Below are positions 1-17,411 of a stretch of 59,418 nucleotides of DNA, one piece after another. Position 1 is the first letter of the stretch, and each line of letters opens with the position of its first letter. The notes under the pieces were generated by a model. That model did not search any database, had not been told where the DNA came from, and worked only from the letters and a program-made list of their open reading frames with translations. A program made the translations under genes and the position numbers. This DNA is from Lentibacillus halodurans (GTDB taxonomy: Bacteria; Bacillota; Bacilli; Bacillales; Amphibacillaceae): assembly GCF_900112045.1 (NCBI RefSeq), contig NZ_FOJW01000019.1, positions 1-59,418 of the forward strand, written 5' to 3'.

Positions 1-415
1 GTCCAGCATGCCTTTCCGGTTCCGGCGGCTGAAAATCTCCTGTTTCAATCTGTTTCAGCTGTGAAACAAGTTCCCGGACATCCATGCTGCCATCTCCACC
101 ATCTCGGATCGCCTCAACCATGTCTTCCAACGATTGCACTGCCAGAAACATGACATCCATCACATCTTCCGTCACGTCCAATTCCTGATTTCTGATCTGA
201 TCGAAGACATTTTCCATTTGATGGGTTAAAGCGGCAATGTCATGAAATGCCATTGTTCCGGCCATGCCCTTCAATGTATGGGCTGAACGAAAAATGTCAT
301 GGACGATATCCGGATTCTCCGGATTCTGTTCGAGTTCTAATAAATGATGATTGATGGACTGCAGGTGTTCATCACTTTCGTCAAGGAATACATCAAGATA
401 ATCACTGGTATCCAT
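1..415 (-). CDS. cheA: Chemotaxis histidine kinase CheA, N-terminal part
   Basis: Only the first 138 or so codons are inside the window; the gene runs off the left edge. The reading frame starts at an ATG at 415 behind an AGGGGGG ribosome site. It shows a phosphotransfer (Hpt) domain with the motif SAHTLKG around residues 44-50, where His46 is the expected phosphorylated histidine. In this family the kinase phosphorylates itself and passes the phosphate to CheY and CheB to control flagellar rotation. It is the last visible gene of a leftward operon with cheX, motB, motA and an EAL gene. Full CheA is roughly 670 residues, so kinase, dimerisation and CheW-binding domains are not seen. A different Hpt protein is possible but unlikely in this context. 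Confidence 0.85.
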   Translation of the reverse strand, partial: MDTSDYLDVFLDESDEHLQSINHHLLELEQNPENPDIVHDIFRSAHTLKGMAGTMAFHDIAALTHQMENVFDQIRNQELDVTEDVMDVMFLAVQSLEDMVEAIRDGGDGSMDVRELVSQLKQIETGDFQPPEPERHAG

Positions 416-432
416 TTCAACCCCCCTATCTA

Positions 433-894
433 TTAATCAAGCAACAGGAAAATATCCAAATCTCCTAAATGATCAAATGAAGCCGTCACACTAAGGCCTT
501 GTTTAAAGCCCGATAATGTTGAATCTCCCTGTATCATCGTTGGGGCAGTAATATTAATATCAATCCCATTTTCGATGATATTCGTTGATAAACCCCCAGC
601 AATCATATTACCGAGTTCACCACTAAAGGATATAAGCATATCACCCTCAAGAGGCATCCCGTACATGGCTTCTCCAACCTTGCTAAAAATTGCAGACTTT
701 CCTGATAAAACCAGTTTTCCTTTAACATCCCCGGTAATACCAATCAGGACGCCAAACTTCAGACCAAAATCACGTTCTAATAACCGTGGATTTGTCCTTG
801 TATATTCAATTGGCACAACTGTATTCAACGATATCAAGGTACCATTAAGCAAGTTGGTGACTGCTTTATTTCGCTCGTTTGCTGTAATTTGCAT
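433..894 (-). CDS. cheX: Chemotaxis phosphatase CheX family
   Basis: A 153-residue protein of usual CheX length. The central segment SGELGNMIAGG carries the E-x-x-N signature that CheC/CheX/FliY phosphatases use to dephosphorylate CheY-P. It starts 6 bases after the motB stop behind GAGGAGTGAG, so it is in the same operon. Function from the family: removes phosphate from CheY so the motor signal ends. The single ExxN copy fits CheX rather than CheC, which carries two. Cytoplasmic, with no membrane segment. Confidence 0.8.
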   Translation of the reverse strand: MQITANERNKAVTNLLNGTLISLNTVVPIEYTRTNPRLLERDFGLKFGVLIGITGDVKGKLVLSGKSAIFSKVGEAMYGMPLEGDMLISFSGELGNMIAGGLSTNIIENGIDINITAPTMIQGDSTLSGFKQGLSVTASFDHLGDLDIFLLLD

Positions 895-900
895 TTGTTC

Positions 901-1683
901 TCACTCCTCATCGGAACTCGATTCTCCTGTCTCAATAACATGATTCGGCATTATTTGCACTTCAACTCTTCTATTTATTTCCATGTTTTGTTCATTTGTG
1001 TTAGGCACAATCGGATGATGTTCACCAAATCCTTTAGCACTGAACTGCTCTGGTTCCAGATTTTCGTGTTCAAGTAATAATTGCATAAAATTAATCGCAC
1101 GCATGGCGCTTAAGTCCCAATTAGACGAAAAATCACTATTTTCTATCGGGCGGTTATCGGTATGCCCGCTCACGACGATTTGATTAGGCGGATCAGTATA
1201 TAAAAAATTGGAAATTTCCCTGGCGAGCTTCCTGCCTTCTTTCTTCACTTCAGCACTGCCTGTATCAAAAGACACATCATTGGATATCGTGACAAATAAT
1301 CCCTCATTTGATAATTTTGTGCCTAACACTTCCGATAAATCATTTTGCTCAATATATTCGTTAATCTGTTGCTGCAGTCCCTTTAATTTTTGTAATTCAT
1401 TCATTTTATCAAGTTCTTGATCATGTTCATTATCATCTTCATTGCTATGATCTGCCTCAACTGGAACCTGATCCTGAGTACCGTTGCTGCCCTCTAATAT
1501 TCCGCTTCCTCCATTAAACTCACTATCAAAAACTTGTATCAGACTTTCATATTTCTGAGCATCTATTTCGCTCATCGCAAAGAGAACGATAAATAATGCA
1601 ACTAGAAGGGTCAGTAAATCCGAGTATGGAAGCAGCCACGATTCATTGATATGATTGCCTTTACGCTGTCTCTTCCGTCGCAT
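901..1683 (-). CDS. motB: Flagellar motor stator protein MotB
   Basis: About 260 residues: basic N-terminus, one membrane segment (PYSDLLTLLVALFIVLFAMS) with the conserved ion-binding Asp in PYSD, then a periplasmic OmpA-like peptidoglycan-binding domain (motifs SGHTDNRPI, NWDLSAMRA, NRRVEVQI). It anchors the stator to the wall and, with MotA, conducts ions that drive the flagellum. An ATG at 1689 lies directly on the ribosome site AGGAGG, so the second ATG at 1683 is the better start. The start lies inside the end of motA, which suggests translational coupling. The PYSD environment resembles proton-type MotB more than MotS, but the ion is not proven. Confidence 0.93.
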   Translation of the reverse strand: MRRKRQRKGNHINESWLLPYSDLLTLLVALFIVLFAMSEIDAQKYESLIQVFDSEFNGGSGILEGSNGTQDQVPVEADHSNEDDNEHDQELDKMNELQKLKGLQQQINEYIEQNDLSEVLGTKLSNEGLFVTISNDVSFDTGSAEVKKEGRKLAREISNFLYTDPPNQIVVSGHTDNRPIENSDFSSNWDLSAMRAINFMQLLLEHENLEPEQFSAKGFGEHHPIVPNTNEQNMEINRRVEVQIMPNHVIETGESSSDEE

Positions 1684-2461
1684 TTTCATCCTCCTGACCC
1701 AATATTGCCAACTCTTCCGAAGATAAGTAAGAACTTAACTTATCTTTGATGATCTGAGGAGATTCGCCATTTGTTATGGACAAAATGCCTTCTATCATAA
1801 TTTGCTTCAATCGAACTTCATTTTCGGACTTCTCTTTTAACTTATTGGCAAAGGGATGCCATAAAATATACCCGGAGAAAATCCCCAATAATGTTGCCAC
1901 AAAAGCAGCAGATATCGCTTTACCCAAAACCTCAATATCATTCAAATCACTAAGTGCAGCAATTAAGCCAATCACAGCTCCAAGTACACCTAATGTAGGC
2001 GCATATGTACCGGCTTGCGTAAATATAGATATACCTTTCTGATGCCTTTCCTCCATTGCATCAATCTTTTCCAGCATCACTTCCCGTATAAAGTCAGGGG
2101 ATTGACCATCAACAACTAATTGCAAGCCAGAACGCAAAAATGGATCATTCACATGGTCCATTTTCCCTTCCAACCATAGTATTCCTTCTTTTCTTGTCGT
2201 TTCAGCCCAGTTTGTGATATCTGTCATGAATGCTGTAGCATCGCTATTTTGATCCTTTGTAAATATGATTTTCAATAATGCTGGTACTTTCTTAAGCGTA
2301 CTCATTGGAAAAGCTATAAACACCGAGGCAGCAGTGCCTAAAAAGATGATTAATAGTGCTGCCGGGTTGATAATCGCCATAGGGCTTACCCCTTTTAATA
2401 CCATACCAGCCCCAACAGCAATAATCCCAAAAAGTATCCCAATAATTGATGCTTTATCCAT
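1661..2461 (-). CDS. motA: Flagellar motor stator protein MotA
   Basis: A 266-residue protein with the four membrane segments and large cytoplasmic loop typical of MotA. It starts with MDKASIIGILFGIIAVGAGM, has the loop with charged residues around WAETTRKEGILWLE, and the paired C-terminal helices (QAGTYAPTLGVLGAVIGLIA). It forms the ion channel of the stator with MotB. The gene overlaps the upstream EAL gene by 8 bases and the downstream motB by about 23 bases, so the three are one translation-coupled unit. Confidence 0.94.
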   Translation of the reverse strand: MDKASIIGILFGIIAVGAGMVLKGVSPMAIINPAALLIIFLGTAASVFIAFPMSTLKKVPALLKIIFTKDQNSDATAFMTDITNWAETTRKEGILWLEGKMDHVNDPFLRSGLQLVVDGQSPDFIREVMLEKIDAMEERHQKGISIFTQAGTYAPTLGVLGAVIGLIAALSDLNDIEVLGKAISAAFVATLLGIFSGYILWHPFANKLKEKSENEVRLKQIMIEGILSITNGESPQIIKDKLSSYLSSEELAILGQEDENATEETA

Positions 2462-3224
2462 CTTGTAACCTCCACAACCTTATATATTGATCTGGAAATT
2501 CACCCGACATATAATCCTTTATCGGTTTTGGCTTCCCTAAAACATACCCCTGTCCATACGTAACACCCAATTCCCTCGCTGTTTGCAGATCAGCCACAGA
2601 CTCAAATCCTTCTACGATAACCTCAGTATTATTGTCAAAGAGGGTCAGCATTGATTGAAGAGCCTTCTGTTTTTTGGGCGAGGCAGCCAGATTTTCAGCA
2701 AAATAACGATCCATTTTAGCTATATCAGGATTCAATTCCAATATGGAACTTAACATGAATTCCCCCTTCCCAATATCATCGAATGCAATTAGGAATCCTT
2801 CATTTCTGATCGCTTGAATAACCTTTTTTATCGTTGAAAAATTTGTTGCCCTCTCATATTCATTTATTTCAAATACAATATGACACGCTTCCATATGGCT
2901 ATAAGACTTCAGGTGTTGCAGAAGATCATAAAAAGTTGAATCAGCTAAAGTTGAGGGAAACACGTTGACAAATATATATAAATGATTCATAGATATATCT
3001 TTAATAATCTTCTGAAATGCTTCAAATATGGAACCCAGGTCTACATTAGCCAGCTGATTTTTTTGCCTGGCGTATTCGAACAGCCGTTCAGGATTTTGAA
3101 ACTGCTTTGAACGTATAAGCACCTCATACCCATGAACGGTATTTGTGGTTAAATTTACAATCGGTTGAACAACATGATAGAAGTCAATTTCGTCAGGCGC
3201 CAAACCAAAACGCAAATGATTCAT
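2454..3224 (-). CDS. EAL-domain cyclic-di-GMP phosphodiesterase
   Basis: A stand-alone EAL domain of 256 residues. The signature is EVLIR (residues 34-38) in place of EALLR. Other conserved pieces are FVNVFP (85-90), FEINEYE (118-124), the metal-binding DD pair (149-150), the KMD lysine (170-172), EGFE (205-208) and QGYVLGKP near 225. The metal and catalytic residues look kept, so it probably hydrolyses c-di-GMP, though EVL for EAL leaves some doubt. An upstream ATG at 3236 exists, but AGGGAT sits correctly for the ATG at 3224, which I chose. It is the first gene of the mot-che operon and lies behind a c-di-GMP riboswitch, suggesting feedback on motility. Confidence 0.85.
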   Translation of the reverse strand: MNHLRFGLAPDEIDFYHVVQPIVNLTTNTVHGYEVLIRSKQFQNPERLFEYARQKNQLANVDLGSIFEAFQKIIKDISMNHLYIFVNVFPSTLADSTFYDLLQHLKSYSHMEACHIVFEINEYERATNFSTIKKVIQAIRNEGFLIAFDDIGKGEFMLSSILELNPDIAKMDRYFAENLAASPKKQKALQSMLTLFDNNTEVIVEGFESVADLQTARELGVTYGQGYVLGKPKPIKDYMSGEFPDQYIRLWRLQDG

Positions 3225-3346
3225 ATTATCCCTCATTCTGTATTTTCTTTAATTTGTCTTCATGATGAACACAATCTATAACATTCTCCTAAGTTCCAAT
3301 AAAAATGGTCTCTGTCATCCTCATCAACATGATGATTTAATCCTTC

Positions 3347-3382
3347 AAAAAAAAAAGCCATTCAGGAATTAATAGAATAGCC
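3347..3382 (-). terminator. Intrinsic terminator of the c-di-GMP riboswitch
   Basis: Read leftward, GGCTATTC (3382-3375) pairs with GAATGGCT (3363-3356), allowing two G-U pairs, and is followed at once by a run of ten T. It sits between the aptamer and the EAL gene, as expected for an expression platform acting by termination. Confidence 0.75.
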
Positions 3383-3410
3383 AAAGGATCACATATAGAT
3401 GAGATTGATG

Positions 3411-3500
3411 ATTTGGCAGCCAGGCGGTCATGATGTCCTGTAACCGGCATTTTAGATCCTTGGCTTTGCGTCCTACCCTTTCGAATAGTTTGCCTTTTTC
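3411..3500 (-). promoter_or_regulatory. Cyclic-di-GMP-I (GEMM-I) riboswitch
   Basis: The leftward RNA contains the GEMM-I core. AAGGCAAAC is followed by a stem CTATTC-GAAA-GGGTAG with its GAAA tetraloop, then GGACGCAAAGCC, then a second stem ending in GCCTGGCTGCC, which closes the P1 pairing with GGCA. This matches the known class I c-di-GMP aptamer. It lies between a SigD-type promoter and an intrinsic terminator in front of EAL-motA-motB-cheX-cheA. Whether ligand turns the operon on or off was not determined. Confidence 0.88.
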
Positions 3501-3550
3501 TTCTAATTAATGGGTTTTTTGTACTATGTCTTTTTGTTCATCTTATTATT

Positions 3551-3577
3551 ATATCGACAAAATATAACAATCTTTTA
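3551..3577 (-). promoter_or_regulatory. SigD (flagellar sigma) promoter
   Basis: Reading leftward there is TAAA (3577-3574), exactly 15 bases, then GTCGATAT (3558-3551). The SigD/sigma-28 consensus is TAAA-N15-GCCGATAT, so there is one mismatch. It points into the c-di-GMP riboswitch and the motility operon. Confidence 0.8.
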
Positions 3578-3692
3578 TACTGTTGAACATAAAAATTTTT
3601 GATATTTAGTGAAATGAACTGCATCGTTTCGTATTCAGGATGATGTATTAAATAAAAGTATTTACCATAACGCATACGAAGAAATGCCGCTA

Positions 3693-3738
3693 AAAAAAGA
3701 TTCCCATCAGGTTCAATAACTTGATAGGAATCTTTTTT
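3693..3738. terminator. Bidirectional terminator
   Basis: AAAAAAGATTCC (3693-3704) and GGAATCTTTTTT (3727-3738) form a perfect 12-base stem with further pairing inside (ATCA/TGAT). A- and T-runs on both sides allow use on either strand. It separates the rightmost sulfur gene from the motility promoter region. Confidence 0.75.
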
Positions 3739-3973
3739 GCACAGTCATGATACAAAATGTAATGGTCAGAAAATGTATCTTGAATGATCCGCGATTCAGT
3801 ACACGAAATCAGTTAAAATCAGGTATTAGCGCTGAAATGATAACCGTGTACGACCTTATCAGACAGATGACGAATAAACCGGGCTATGCTAAAATAAACG
3901 TGCGGTTGGGTGCCAGTACCGAACTCCCCACCGCCGCAAATGGCTTTGCGAAGAGGGTGTTGCCGCACCTTCT

Positions 3974-4561
3974 TCATTCATGCAATGCCCTTCTCGGAAT
4001 CGATGGGCTGCCTGCTCCGACATAGTCTCCCCCGATTTGAGCTTGAAATTTGACCACATCTTCTCCCAGATAACGAAGCCGTTCCATGACTTCCGGATCC
4101 ACTAATGTTTTTTCAGAAAAATGACGATTATGTGCATAGACCGAACCCGGTACAATATGTGCTCGGAAAAATCCGATCAAAGGCTTCAACTGATGCTCAA
4201 TCGCCAGAAAATGATGATATGTTCCACCGGTTGCAATCAAGCCGACAACCTTCCCTTTCAATGCATCATTCGGGATCAAATCGAATACATTTTTCAAGGC
4301 ACCAGTATAGGACCCGCGATATACAGGAGTACCAATAATCAACGCATCTGCTTCTTCAATTTTTTTAATAACCTGTTTTGTATCGTTTTCATAGTACGTT
4401 GGATCTCGTCCGTCACAAAATTGCAAGTCATAATCACGCAAACTGATGATCTCTGTCTCAATCGACGGATTCTCAACTTTGGCAAACTCCAACACTTTGT
4501 CTATTACGATGGTTGTTTTTGAGCGGGGCGTCATACTACCCGACAATCCAAGCAGTTTCAC
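3974..4561 (-). CDS. NADPH-dependent FMN reductase (SsuE/MsuE type)
   Basis: A 195-residue flavodoxin-fold reductase: N-terminal LGLSGSMTPRSKT phosphate loop and GTPVYRGSYTGALKNVFD, the FMN-site motif of SsuE/MsuE proteins. In this family it reduces FMN with NAD(P)H and hands FMNH2 to a partner monooxygenase. Its ATG overlaps the sfnG stop by 4 bases (ATGA), so the two are coupled and the SfnG-like enzyme is the obvious partner. Cytoplasmic. Confidence 0.9.
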   Translation of the reverse strand: MKLLGLSGSMTPRSKTTIVIDKVLEFAKVENPSIETEIISLRDYDLQFCDGRDPTYYENDTKQVIKKIEEADALIIGTPVYRGSYTGALKNVFDLIPNDALKGKVVGLIATGGTYHHFLAIEHQLKPLIGFFRAHIVPGSVYAHNRHFSEKTLVDPEVMERLRYLGEDVVKFQAQIGGDYVGAGSPSIPRRALHE

Positions 4562-5640
4562 ACTGTCACTCCTTTTTCTTTCAATCGTTGCTCTTTTTCA
4601 CGCACAAGTGGGATCACTTTTTCCCCAAATGCCTTCAAGTCGGTTTCATAATGGAAAAATCCTGTTAAGATCAGTCCAACGCCAAGTTTTTTCAACTCAA
4701 TGATACGATCAGCTACCTGCTCCGGTGTTCCGATTAATCCAGTCTTAAAACCATCGTTGTATTGAACAAGATCTTCAAAAGTGGAATTTGCCCACATACC
4801 GTCATGATCTCTGGTTGATTGACCGGCCTCTTTTACCGATTGCCTAAAGCCCTCTACCGCTTCAACGTCGGCGTTAGAGACAATGTCCCGCAGTGTTTGA
4901 AGGGCTTCATTTTCGGTATCACGTACAATCGCAAACCCATTGGCAGCATAATTAACTGTTCGGTCCTCAGCTTTAGCCAGTGATCTAACGCCTTCAATCT
5001 GTTCTTTGAAGCCGTCTAACGTATTTCCGTTCATGAAATACCAATCGGACACACGTGCCGCCATTTCCCGGGCCGCTTTTGAATTTCCCCCCTGAAAAAT
5101 GGGGATATGCTGTACAGGCTTCGGTTTTAAAGGGGCACCGTTAATCCGATAAAAATCTCCTCTGAATATCGCTTCCTCTTCCGTCCACATCGACCGCAGC
5201 ACGCGGATGAACTCCTCTGATCGCCGGTATCGCTCATCATGCTCCAGCCATGGTTCACCATAGCCGGTAAATTCCCCTTTAAACCAGCCGCTGACAACGT
5301 TGACCGCTGCACGGCCATTGCTGATATGATCAAGGGTTGCCAGCATTTTCGCATACACACCCGGGTGCCAAAGACCAGGATGTACCGCTGCAATCAGCTT
5401 AATTTTCGACGTAACACTGGCCAGTGAAGAGGCGAGTGTTGCAGCTTCCAACTGATATTCCGCACCGTAGCTTGCAAAAAAACGTGTTTGCAACAATGCA
5501 AAGTCAAAACCGGCTTCTTCCGCGATTTGTGCATACCGTTTATTCGCCTCGAACGTCCAGTCCGTTTGTTGCGAAAGCTTAGAAACAACGAGCCCTCCAC
5601 TGACATTCGGCACCCAATAAGCGAATTGCAAATTACCCAT
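4558..5640 (-). CDS. sfnG: FMNH2-dependent dimethylsulfone monooxygenase (SfnG-like)
   Basis: A bacterial luciferase-like protein of 360 residues, close in length and sequence style to SfnG. Motifs include FAYWVPNVSGGLV at the start, LLQTRFFASYG, AAVHPGLWHPGVYAKM, NVVSGWFKGEFTGYGEPW and IFQGGNSKAAREMAA. In the family it converts dimethylsulfone to methanesulfinate using FMNH2 and oxygen, releasing sulfur for assimilation. The frame is open to 5688, but AAAGGAGG sits properly before the ATG at 5640, which is therefore the start. It is followed by the FMN reductase and preceded by a SAM-I riboswitch, so it should be made when S-adenosylmethionine is scarce. A related alkanesulfonate monooxygenase is the main alternative. 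Confidence 0.88.
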   Translation of the reverse strand: MGNLQFAYWVPNVSGGLVVSKLSQQTDWTFEANKRYAQIAEEAGFDFALLQTRFFASYGAEYQLEAATLASSLASVTSKIKLIAAVHPGLWHPGVYAKMLATLDHISNGRAAVNVVSGWFKGEFTGYGEPWLEHDERYRRSEEFIRVLRSMWTEEEAIFRGDFYRINGAPLKPKPVQHIPIFQGGNSKAAREMAARVSDWYFMNGNTLDGFKEQIEGVRSLAKAEDRTVNYAANGFAIVRDTENEALQTLRDIVSNADVEAVEGFRQSVKEAGQSTRDHDGMWANSTFEDLVQYNDGFKTGLIGTPEQVADRIIELKKLGVGLILTGFFHYETDLKAFGEKVIPLVREKEQRLKEKGVTV

Positions 5641-5703
5641 TTTGATGACCTCCTTTTCTTTCCATTGTAAAATGTCCCTGTGATGCAAGTGTTGGTTTGA
5701 ACC

Positions 5704-5973: not shown

Positions 5974-6112
5974 TTCTCATCTTCGGATTCATAAAGCAAT
6001 CCTCTGAAATTGGCACCGGGCTTTCGTTCCCATTCCACAAAATGTGCTGTCGAGCAATAAGCTGGTTGCCGAGAGTTCATAGGGTCAGTCCCTCCCTCTC
6101 TCTTGATAAGAA
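5974..6112 (-). promoter_or_regulatory. SAM-I (S-box) riboswitch
   Basis: The leftward RNA carries the S-box core: CTTCTTATCAAGAGAG, then GAGGGACTGACCCTATGAA, CGGCAACC, GGTGCCAATTTC and a closing GAAGATGAGAAG. The first 9 bases pair perfectly with the last 9 (P1). The kink-turn and pseudoknot segments match the known family. With SAM bound, the downstream terminator forms. It controls sfnG and the FMN reductase. Confidence 0.95.
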
Positions 6113-16862: not shown

Positions 16863-17411
16863 TTACGATGTATGTTGGACAAGCAATCGTGCCATCGCAA
16901 TAGAATGTTCCGTTGCTTTATCTGCACCAATCAATGTCGTCATGGAGGTAGTTCCTTCAAGCAGCAATGTGAATTGATTAGCTAAATCTCGTTCGTTATC
17001 TTTACCTTTCTTTTGAGCCAATTGCTGAAAATATTTAAGCAAATTAGATTTATGTCCCCTTGCAATATTCTCTATCTCATTATTGGTTCCCGCATAATCT
17101 TCTATCGCTCTTAAGAACATATCGCCTTTGTAAGATTGTTCTTTTAGCCATCGGCCATGAGCTTCAACAGCAAGAATGAAAGGAGAATCTGAATCCATTT
17201 CCACATGTGAATCCAAATAAGTCCAATAGCGTTCCTCCCGCTGTTTCAATACTTCTTCGACCAAATTGTCCTTGGAAGAAAAATGATTATAAAGCGTCAT
17301 CGTTGCTACATTCGCATCACTGATGATTTTCTTCAATCCTACGCCACGAAATCCGTGCTCATAAAATAATCGTTCAGCTACTTGTAATAATGTATCTTTT
17401 TTTGCAGTCAT
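16863..17411 (-). CDS. TetR-family repressor
   Basis: A 182-residue regulator. N-terminal helix-turn-helix: TLLQVAERLFYEHGFRGVGLKKI, then ATMTLYNHFSSKDNLVEEVL. The frame is open to 17645, but GGAGAAGTGAAAGAC places the start at ATG 17411, giving standard TetR length. Matched operators before itself and before the MFS transporter indicate autoregulation and control of the pump. Ligand unknown. Confidence 0.88.
   Translation of the reverse strand: MTAKKDTLLQVAERLFYEHGFRGVGLKKIISDANVATMTLYNHFSSKDNLVEEVLKQREERYWTYLDSHVEMDSDSPFILAVEAHGRWLKEQSYKGDMFLRAIEDYAGTNNEIENIARGHKSNLLKYFQQLAQKKGKDNERDLANQFTLLLEGTTSMTTLIGADKATEHSIAMARLLVQHTS

Follow-up and report, generated by a model that had tools for sequence, protein, structure and literature searches.

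The window analysed here, a stretch of 59,418 nucleotides from Lentibacillus halodurans, contains a motility operon in which a riboswitch is predicted to sense the probable substrate of the first encoded enzyme. This raises the question of whether c-di-GMP turns the operon on or off, and which sign the resulting loop would have. A preliminary description of the locus recognised the link between riboswitch and enzyme, which we confirm, but suggested a self-tuning loop, which does not agree with the expression platform, as this predicts an OFF switch. Our main reading, to which we give a probability of roughly 0.7, is a SigD-promoted class I c-di-GMP transcriptional OFF switch over EAL-motA-motB-cheX-cheA, with a double-negative loop. 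The operon lies on the minus strand and runs from a SigD-like promoter through a GEMM-I aptamer and an intrinsic terminator into five genes:

3551 to 3577, minus strand: SigD-type promoter-like site TAAA-N15-GTCGATAT, with 11/12 matches to TAAA-N15-GCCGATAT
3411 to 3503, minus strand: class I c-di-GMP riboswitch aptamer, RF03167 c-di-GMP-I-GGC (cmscan 65.9 bits, E 2.2e-13)
3409 to 3417, minus strand: antiterminator 5' arm GCCAAAUCA, overlapping the aptamer 3' end
3380 to 3391, minus strand: antiterminator 3' arm UGAUCCUUUGGC, overlapping the terminator 5' arm
3347 to 3382, minus strand: intrinsic terminator, consisting of GGCUAUUC (3375-3382), an 11-nt loop, GAAUGGCU (3356-3363) and U10 (3347-3356)
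2454 to 3236, minus strand: EAL-only protein, probable c-di-GMP phosphodiesterase (PF00563, 134.9 bits)
1661 to 2461, minus strand: motA, flagellar stator (PF01618, 113.2 bits), with an 8-nt overlap with the EAL gene
901 to 1689, minus strand: motB, flagellar stator (PF13677, MotB plug, 64.8 bits; PF00691, OmpA, 58.1 bits)
433 to 894, minus strand: cheX, CheX phosphatase family (PF13690, 47.5 bits)
2 to 415, minus strand: first part of cheA, truncated where the window ends (identified from its open frame and from relatives, not by Pfam)

The range given earlier for the locus, 2454-3577, was correct but left out motA to cheA. The gene order EAL-motA-motB-cheX-cheA holds, as Pfam identifies four of the genes, and cheA is recognised from its truncated open frame (2-415, minus strand), which resembles the N-termini of CheA-like frames of about 2 kb adjoining cheX in relatives. 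The overlaps of EAL with motA and of motA with motB, together with spacings of less than 20 nt to cheX and to cheA, fit a single operon. Translation of the EAL gene likely starts at its second in-frame ATG (3224), which has GAGGG ahead of it in our reading of the sequence. Elsewhere in the window, a SAM riboswitch (RF00162, 77.8 bits, 5974-6112, minus strand) lies upstream of genes at 4558-5688 and 3974-4561 on the same strand, whose products by eye, without a family search, resemble a flavin-dependent monooxygenase and a flavin reductase.

The proposed GEMM-I aptamer was recovered by a covariance-model search, its 65.9 bits with RF03167 being above the gathering score of 59. The parent model RF01051 scored 76.5 bits at 3412-3504, against a gathering score of 35, and our own covariance model R1 gave 81.9 bits for the window aptamer, itself one of the training sequences of R1. 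For comparison within the family, we used 56 EAL loci (L068-L123), chosen by hand from the best single-domain matches listed, and 80 motA loci (L128-L207); of the 94 motA places listed, 85 fall within the compared loci and 9, from one genus (g36), lie outside. The compared loci and the own genome gave 59 model hits (38 + 21), which were reduced to 57 aptamer places by removing the weak L159 (24.9 bits) and the repeat L095 (same place as L130).

Folding of the region after the aptamer revealed the terminator that had been described there, a hairpin of GGCUAUUC and GAAUGGCU followed by U10, with a z of -3.7 for a 66-nt segment that also takes in an outer helix past the U tract. The automated terminator scan returned no match at this place; it permits loops of 3-8 nt only, and the window loop has 11 nt. 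Taken as a whole, the 211-nt leader is not unusually stable relative to shuffles (z -0.47). A terminator-like hairpin with a U tract was found by our own scan in 52 of the 57 GEMM leaders, a count made without a shuffle control.

The direction of the switch follows from a third strand. The aptamer 3' end, GCCAAAUCA, can pair with UGAUCCUUUGGC, leaving a 3-nt bulge. This antiterminator is in competition with the aptamer as well as with the terminator, whereas those two can form side by side. Binding of the ligand is accordingly expected to promote termination, and from the modelled layout c-di-GMP should switch the operon OFF. Free folding of the window leader yields an antiterminator-type fold of -38.8 kcal/mol, with GCCAAA paired to UUUGGC, and this type of fold is the best one before the terminator 3' arm is made. 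Forcing the terminator gives -37.7 kcal/mol, about 1 kcal/mol away, and forcing the exact bulged antiterminator gives -37.1 kcal/mol, slightly worse than the terminator; these energies are rough, since in the -38.8 fold the U tract is base-paired to the A-rich leader too. An alternative antiterminator picked by eye, in which the aptamer strand AGCCAAGGAUC pairs with GAUCCUUUGGCU, was dropped, as relatives share the pairing of the aptamer 3' end instead.

The two arms vary in a coordinated manner among relatives. Using 35 leaders with a GGCTAT-type terminator arm, we combined each 5' half with each 3' half in a permutation test, from which the leaders without such an arm (22/57) were excluded. 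The cognate duplexes had a mean of -6.33 kcal/mol vs -4.72 +/- 0.26 kcal/mol for swapped halves, and none of 20,000 permutations, which are not fully independent because the 35 leaders share kinship, was as low. With the invariant core omitted, the values were -1.60 vs -0.55 +/- 0.25 kcal/mol, again with 0/20,000 permutations. Cognate halves beat the median swapped partner in 30 of the 35 leaders and failed to do so in five. Furthermore, in the MFE fold of a transcript ending about 16 nt past the start of the terminator arm, the aptamer CC pairs with the arm GG in 29/35 leaders, a figure obtained without a control. Scored leader by leader, the antiterminator reached p<=0.05 in 14 of 33 GGCTAT-type leaders (window, 0.005) and in none of 19 leaders with other terminators. 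The latter take in most of the EAL-linked leaders, 11/16 of which have no GGCTAT-type arm, and the null result limits the antiterminator claim to GGCTAT-type leaders.

The earlier assignment of a c-di-GMP phosphodiesterase gene is supported by the active site. Besides matching the EAL profile (134.9 bits), the window protein has E38, R42, N91, E123, E126, D153, D154, K174, D176, E209, E212 and Q229 intact, residues whose catalytic roles we assume. In an alignment of 57 EAL proteins, these twelve motif columns are kept in 53 to 57 sequences. Loop 6 reads DDIGKGE, its final residue being variable across the family. The best solved relatives are a bacterial EAL phosphodiesterase (6ifq, 6ih1) and Listeria PdeB (4q6j), and the window protein is probably a c-di-GMP phosphodiesterase as well. 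The own genome encodes two GGDEF domains (GGDEF and SGDEF motifs) and two EAL domains, one protein holding both kinds, along with one HD_5 domain, two PilZ domains and two GEMM-I aptamers, so its c-di-GMP network seems small. Since the GGDEF-EAL protein and the HD_5 protein are also present, the window EAL may contribute little.

We propose that transcription starts from a SigD-dependent promoter and runs through a class I c-di-GMP riboswitch, which acts as a transcriptional OFF switch. At low c-di-GMP, the aptamer 3' end GCCAAAUCA would pair with UGAUCCUUUGGC and thereby occupy the start of the terminator 5' arm, and RNA polymerase would read on into the genes for the EAL phosphodiesterase, the MotAB stator, CheX and CheA. 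At high c-di-GMP, the ligand would hold the aptamer 3' end, the terminator would form and the entire operon would be cut off. Expression of the stator and chemotaxis genes would then require SigD together with low c-di-GMP. As the product of the first gene probably degrades the riboswitch ligand, the loop would be double-negative: low c-di-GMP would bring more phosphodiesterase and stay low, and high c-di-GMP would turn the phosphodiesterase off and stay high. An OFF switch over a phosphodiesterase lets the substrate shut off its own removal and rise further, which amounts to positive feedback that is at most bistable. This corrects the sign of the loop relative to the first reading; homeostasis would call for an ON switch, and we rejected self-tuning negative feedback on the grounds of the three-strand platform. 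A minimal model combining degradation with a non-cooperative OFF switch, in which E stands for the regulated capacity, K for the switch constant and b for the background capacity, ceases to be monotonic when E*K exceeds b*Km; in this model, bistability without cooperativity is possible but not guaranteed, depending on parameters. The most far-reaching version is a one-operon bistable switch: a SigD promoter, AND-gated by the OFF riboswitch, would drive the phosphodiesterase along with the stator and the chemotaxis kinase, and the riboswitch would by itself join second messenger and flagellar motor in a positive loop. We regard this version as less likely than not. If true, a bistable operon would make cells commit to swimming or settling, not fine-tune c-di-GMP.

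Across the family, GEMM-I is present in 120 of 159 genomes, the EAL protein is matched in at least 144/159 and MotA, at E<=1e-60, in 91/159. Sixteen of the 57 aptamers lie directly before motA, 16 before an EAL gene (16/57 EAL loci examined, in 15 genomes), 8 before cheX and 17 before other genes, among which we named methyl-accepting proteins, LuxR-type regulators and GTP cyclohydrolase by reading their sequences. The complete GEMM-I-EAL-motA-motB-cheX-cheA arrangement recurs at three loci in two further species of the same genus, one locus in G044 (L094) and two in G045 (L093, L068). Direct reading shows AGAATGAGG preceding the EAL start in L093 and L068, as in the window. All three EAL copies are modified: in L093, Ser replaces the Arg of ExLxR; in L094, Gly replaces the Asp of KxD; and in L068 (4193-4888), the second operon copy of G045, the EAL frame is broken by a stop and GEMM-I and motAB are kept. 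Retention of the riboswitch over motAB as EAL changes or decays counts against the loop as the main purpose. L093 also carries a second GEMM-I within the operon, between motB and cheX (5267-5355), and in seven further genomes cheX is directly preceded by GEMM-I, with a recognised motB ahead in six.

The own genome's second GEMM-I (L124 3875-3959; G000:C11:43874-43958, plus strand) is located about 50 nt before a sinI-like gene, which is followed by a sinR-like gene. It has A, not G, at the presumed selectivity position, and our own scan found no terminator for it. GEMM-I also adjoins sinI-like frames in L021, where a sinR-like frame is present too, and in L027. At L162 (1259-1343) and L190 (3037-3120), the gene downstream of GEMM-I reads like folE (GTP cyclohydrolase I), a metabolic target that we did not expect; the L162 aptamer carries A at the presumed selectivity position.

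The SigD promoter motif of the preliminary description was found at 3551-3577 (minus strand), where it is backed by its position, though the motif is weak genome-wide. Its 11/12 matches were scored against TAAA-N15-GCCGATAT, which we take to be the SigD consensus of B. subtilis. The own genome has a gene for a FliA/SigD-type sigma factor (261.5 bits), and one of its two flagellins has TAAA-N14-GTCGATAT about 330 nt upstream; the other has no upstream site above 8/12. A second motif at 17119-17146, with a 16-nt spacer and inside a coding frame, was taken as chance. To count enrichment, we considered sites with at least 10/12 matches, a 15-nt spacer and a distance of at most 200 nt upstream of the aptamer. 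Such sites precede 8 of 32 motA- or EAL-linked aptamers (motA, 5/16; EAL, 3/16), the expectation from approximate dinucleotide shuffles being 1.8% and 0.7% per leader, respectively; none was found before the 8 cheX-linked or the 17 other aptamers. In the same-operon relatives, the score is only 9/12 (L094) and 8/12 (L093).

From its sequence, the operon promoter is expected to use SigD. The site could instead be a chance match, another promoter transcribing the operon and the riboswitch alone gating it. We hold this to be unlikely, if by no means negligible: the strict motif, with 7 matches in the 3.67 Mb genome vs 3 for the reversed control, is not clearly above background, and 24 of the 32 motA- or EAL-linked leaders have no site of at least 10 matches, but the window site scores 11/12 at 46 nt ahead of the aptamer, five further leaders have sites with 10-11 matches at 38-53 nt, and a consensus scan of 3200-3800 on the minus strand found no sigma-70-like site. 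Far less probable is a ligand other than c-di-GMP, such as cAMP-GMP. The base before GCAAAC, which we take to correspond to position 20 of Vc2, a ligand-contact and selectivity position presumably occupied by A in the cAMP-GMP class, is G in the window aptamer, as in 53 of the 57 aptamers examined, and A in 4/57. The aptamer is expected to bind c-di-GMP, even though c-AMP-GMP-specific GEMM-I variants are on record (PMC7266159).

As for the loop, c-di-GMP acts as a "settle down" signal, and stator expression is unwanted when cells should settle. A homeostatic arrangement, in which c-di-GMP turns the operon ON and so makes the enzyme that removes it, would also raise the stator genes at just that time, and the three-strand layout gives an OFF switch. 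We consider it very unlikely, ON switches of the GEMM-I type being known nonetheless from Bc2 of B. thuringiensis (PMC6366702). Another account deserves more weight, although we doubt it: a plain OFF switch for the stator and chemotaxis genes, with the EAL protein a passenger or a degenerate c-di-GMP binder and no meaningful feedback. It fits the occurrence of GEMM-I directly before motA in 16 genomes and before cheX in 8, the alteration or interruption of all three other EAL copies of the operon, and the further phosphodiesterase-type proteins of the genome. Against it, every catalytic residue checked is intact in the window EAL, and the link between GEMM-I and EAL genes described above is a recurrent one. 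We retain the OFF switch with a double-negative loop as our main reading, with the qualification that control of motAB may be more important than the loop, given the alteration or interruption of the other EAL copies and the separate association of GEMM-I with motA and cheX.

That GEMM-I riboswitches control motility is already established, an OFF switch ahead of flgB being one instance (PMC6200980, PMC6366702, PMC9262584), and the window operon elaborates on this scheme. Many GEMM-associated genes relate to c-di-GMP production, degradation or signalling, according to PMC7266159. Among the best-matching open-access titles and abstract openings, we found no GEMM-I-EAL-motAB-cheX-cheA operon; subscription papers lie mostly outside this search, so novelty is unproven. 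The nearest parallel is Cd1 (Cdi-1-3) of Clostridioides difficile, a class I aptamer before flgB that works as a transcriptional OFF switch (PMC6200980, PMC9262584), and whose aptamer and terminator are described as coexisting and competing with an antiterminator (PMC9262584). The window shares the class I aptamer over motility genes and the same layout of coexistence and competition, the OFF direction having been measured for Cd1 and being predicted here. Cd1 is reported to control early flagellar genes including sigD (PMC6366702), whereas the window has a SigD-type promoter and EAL, stator, CheX and CheA genes.

In Bacillus methanolicus, a Bacillus relative, putative c-di-GMP riboswitches are described ahead of an operon for c-di-GMP turnover and ahead of sinI (PMC4342826). 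The former resembles the window in preceding c-di-GMP turnover genes, and the latter resembles the second GEMM-I of the own genome ahead of its sinI-like gene; the available parts of that paper mention neither stator or chemotaxis genes nor a switch direction. Bc1 of Bacillus thuringiensis lies before an mcp gene (PMC5816809, PMC11218506) and is likewise a GEMM-I over a chemotaxis gene, but, as far as the accessible text of PMC11218506 goes, it covers the receptor gene only and has a long platform with two terminators, unlike the window operon. The EAL-only PdeB of Listeria (Lmo0131, PDB 4q6j) is reported to hydrolyse c-di-GMP in vitro (PMC4125290). The window protein is EAL-only too and matches PdeB in sequence (E 1.7e-15); it differs in its riboswitch, none being mentioned for PdeB in the portion of PMC4125290 at hand. 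Set beside these systems, the OFF riboswitch predicted here spans a probable phosphodiesterase as well as motor and chemotaxis genes, and would offer a compact, testable case of RNA-closed positive feedback in the decision between motile and sessile life.
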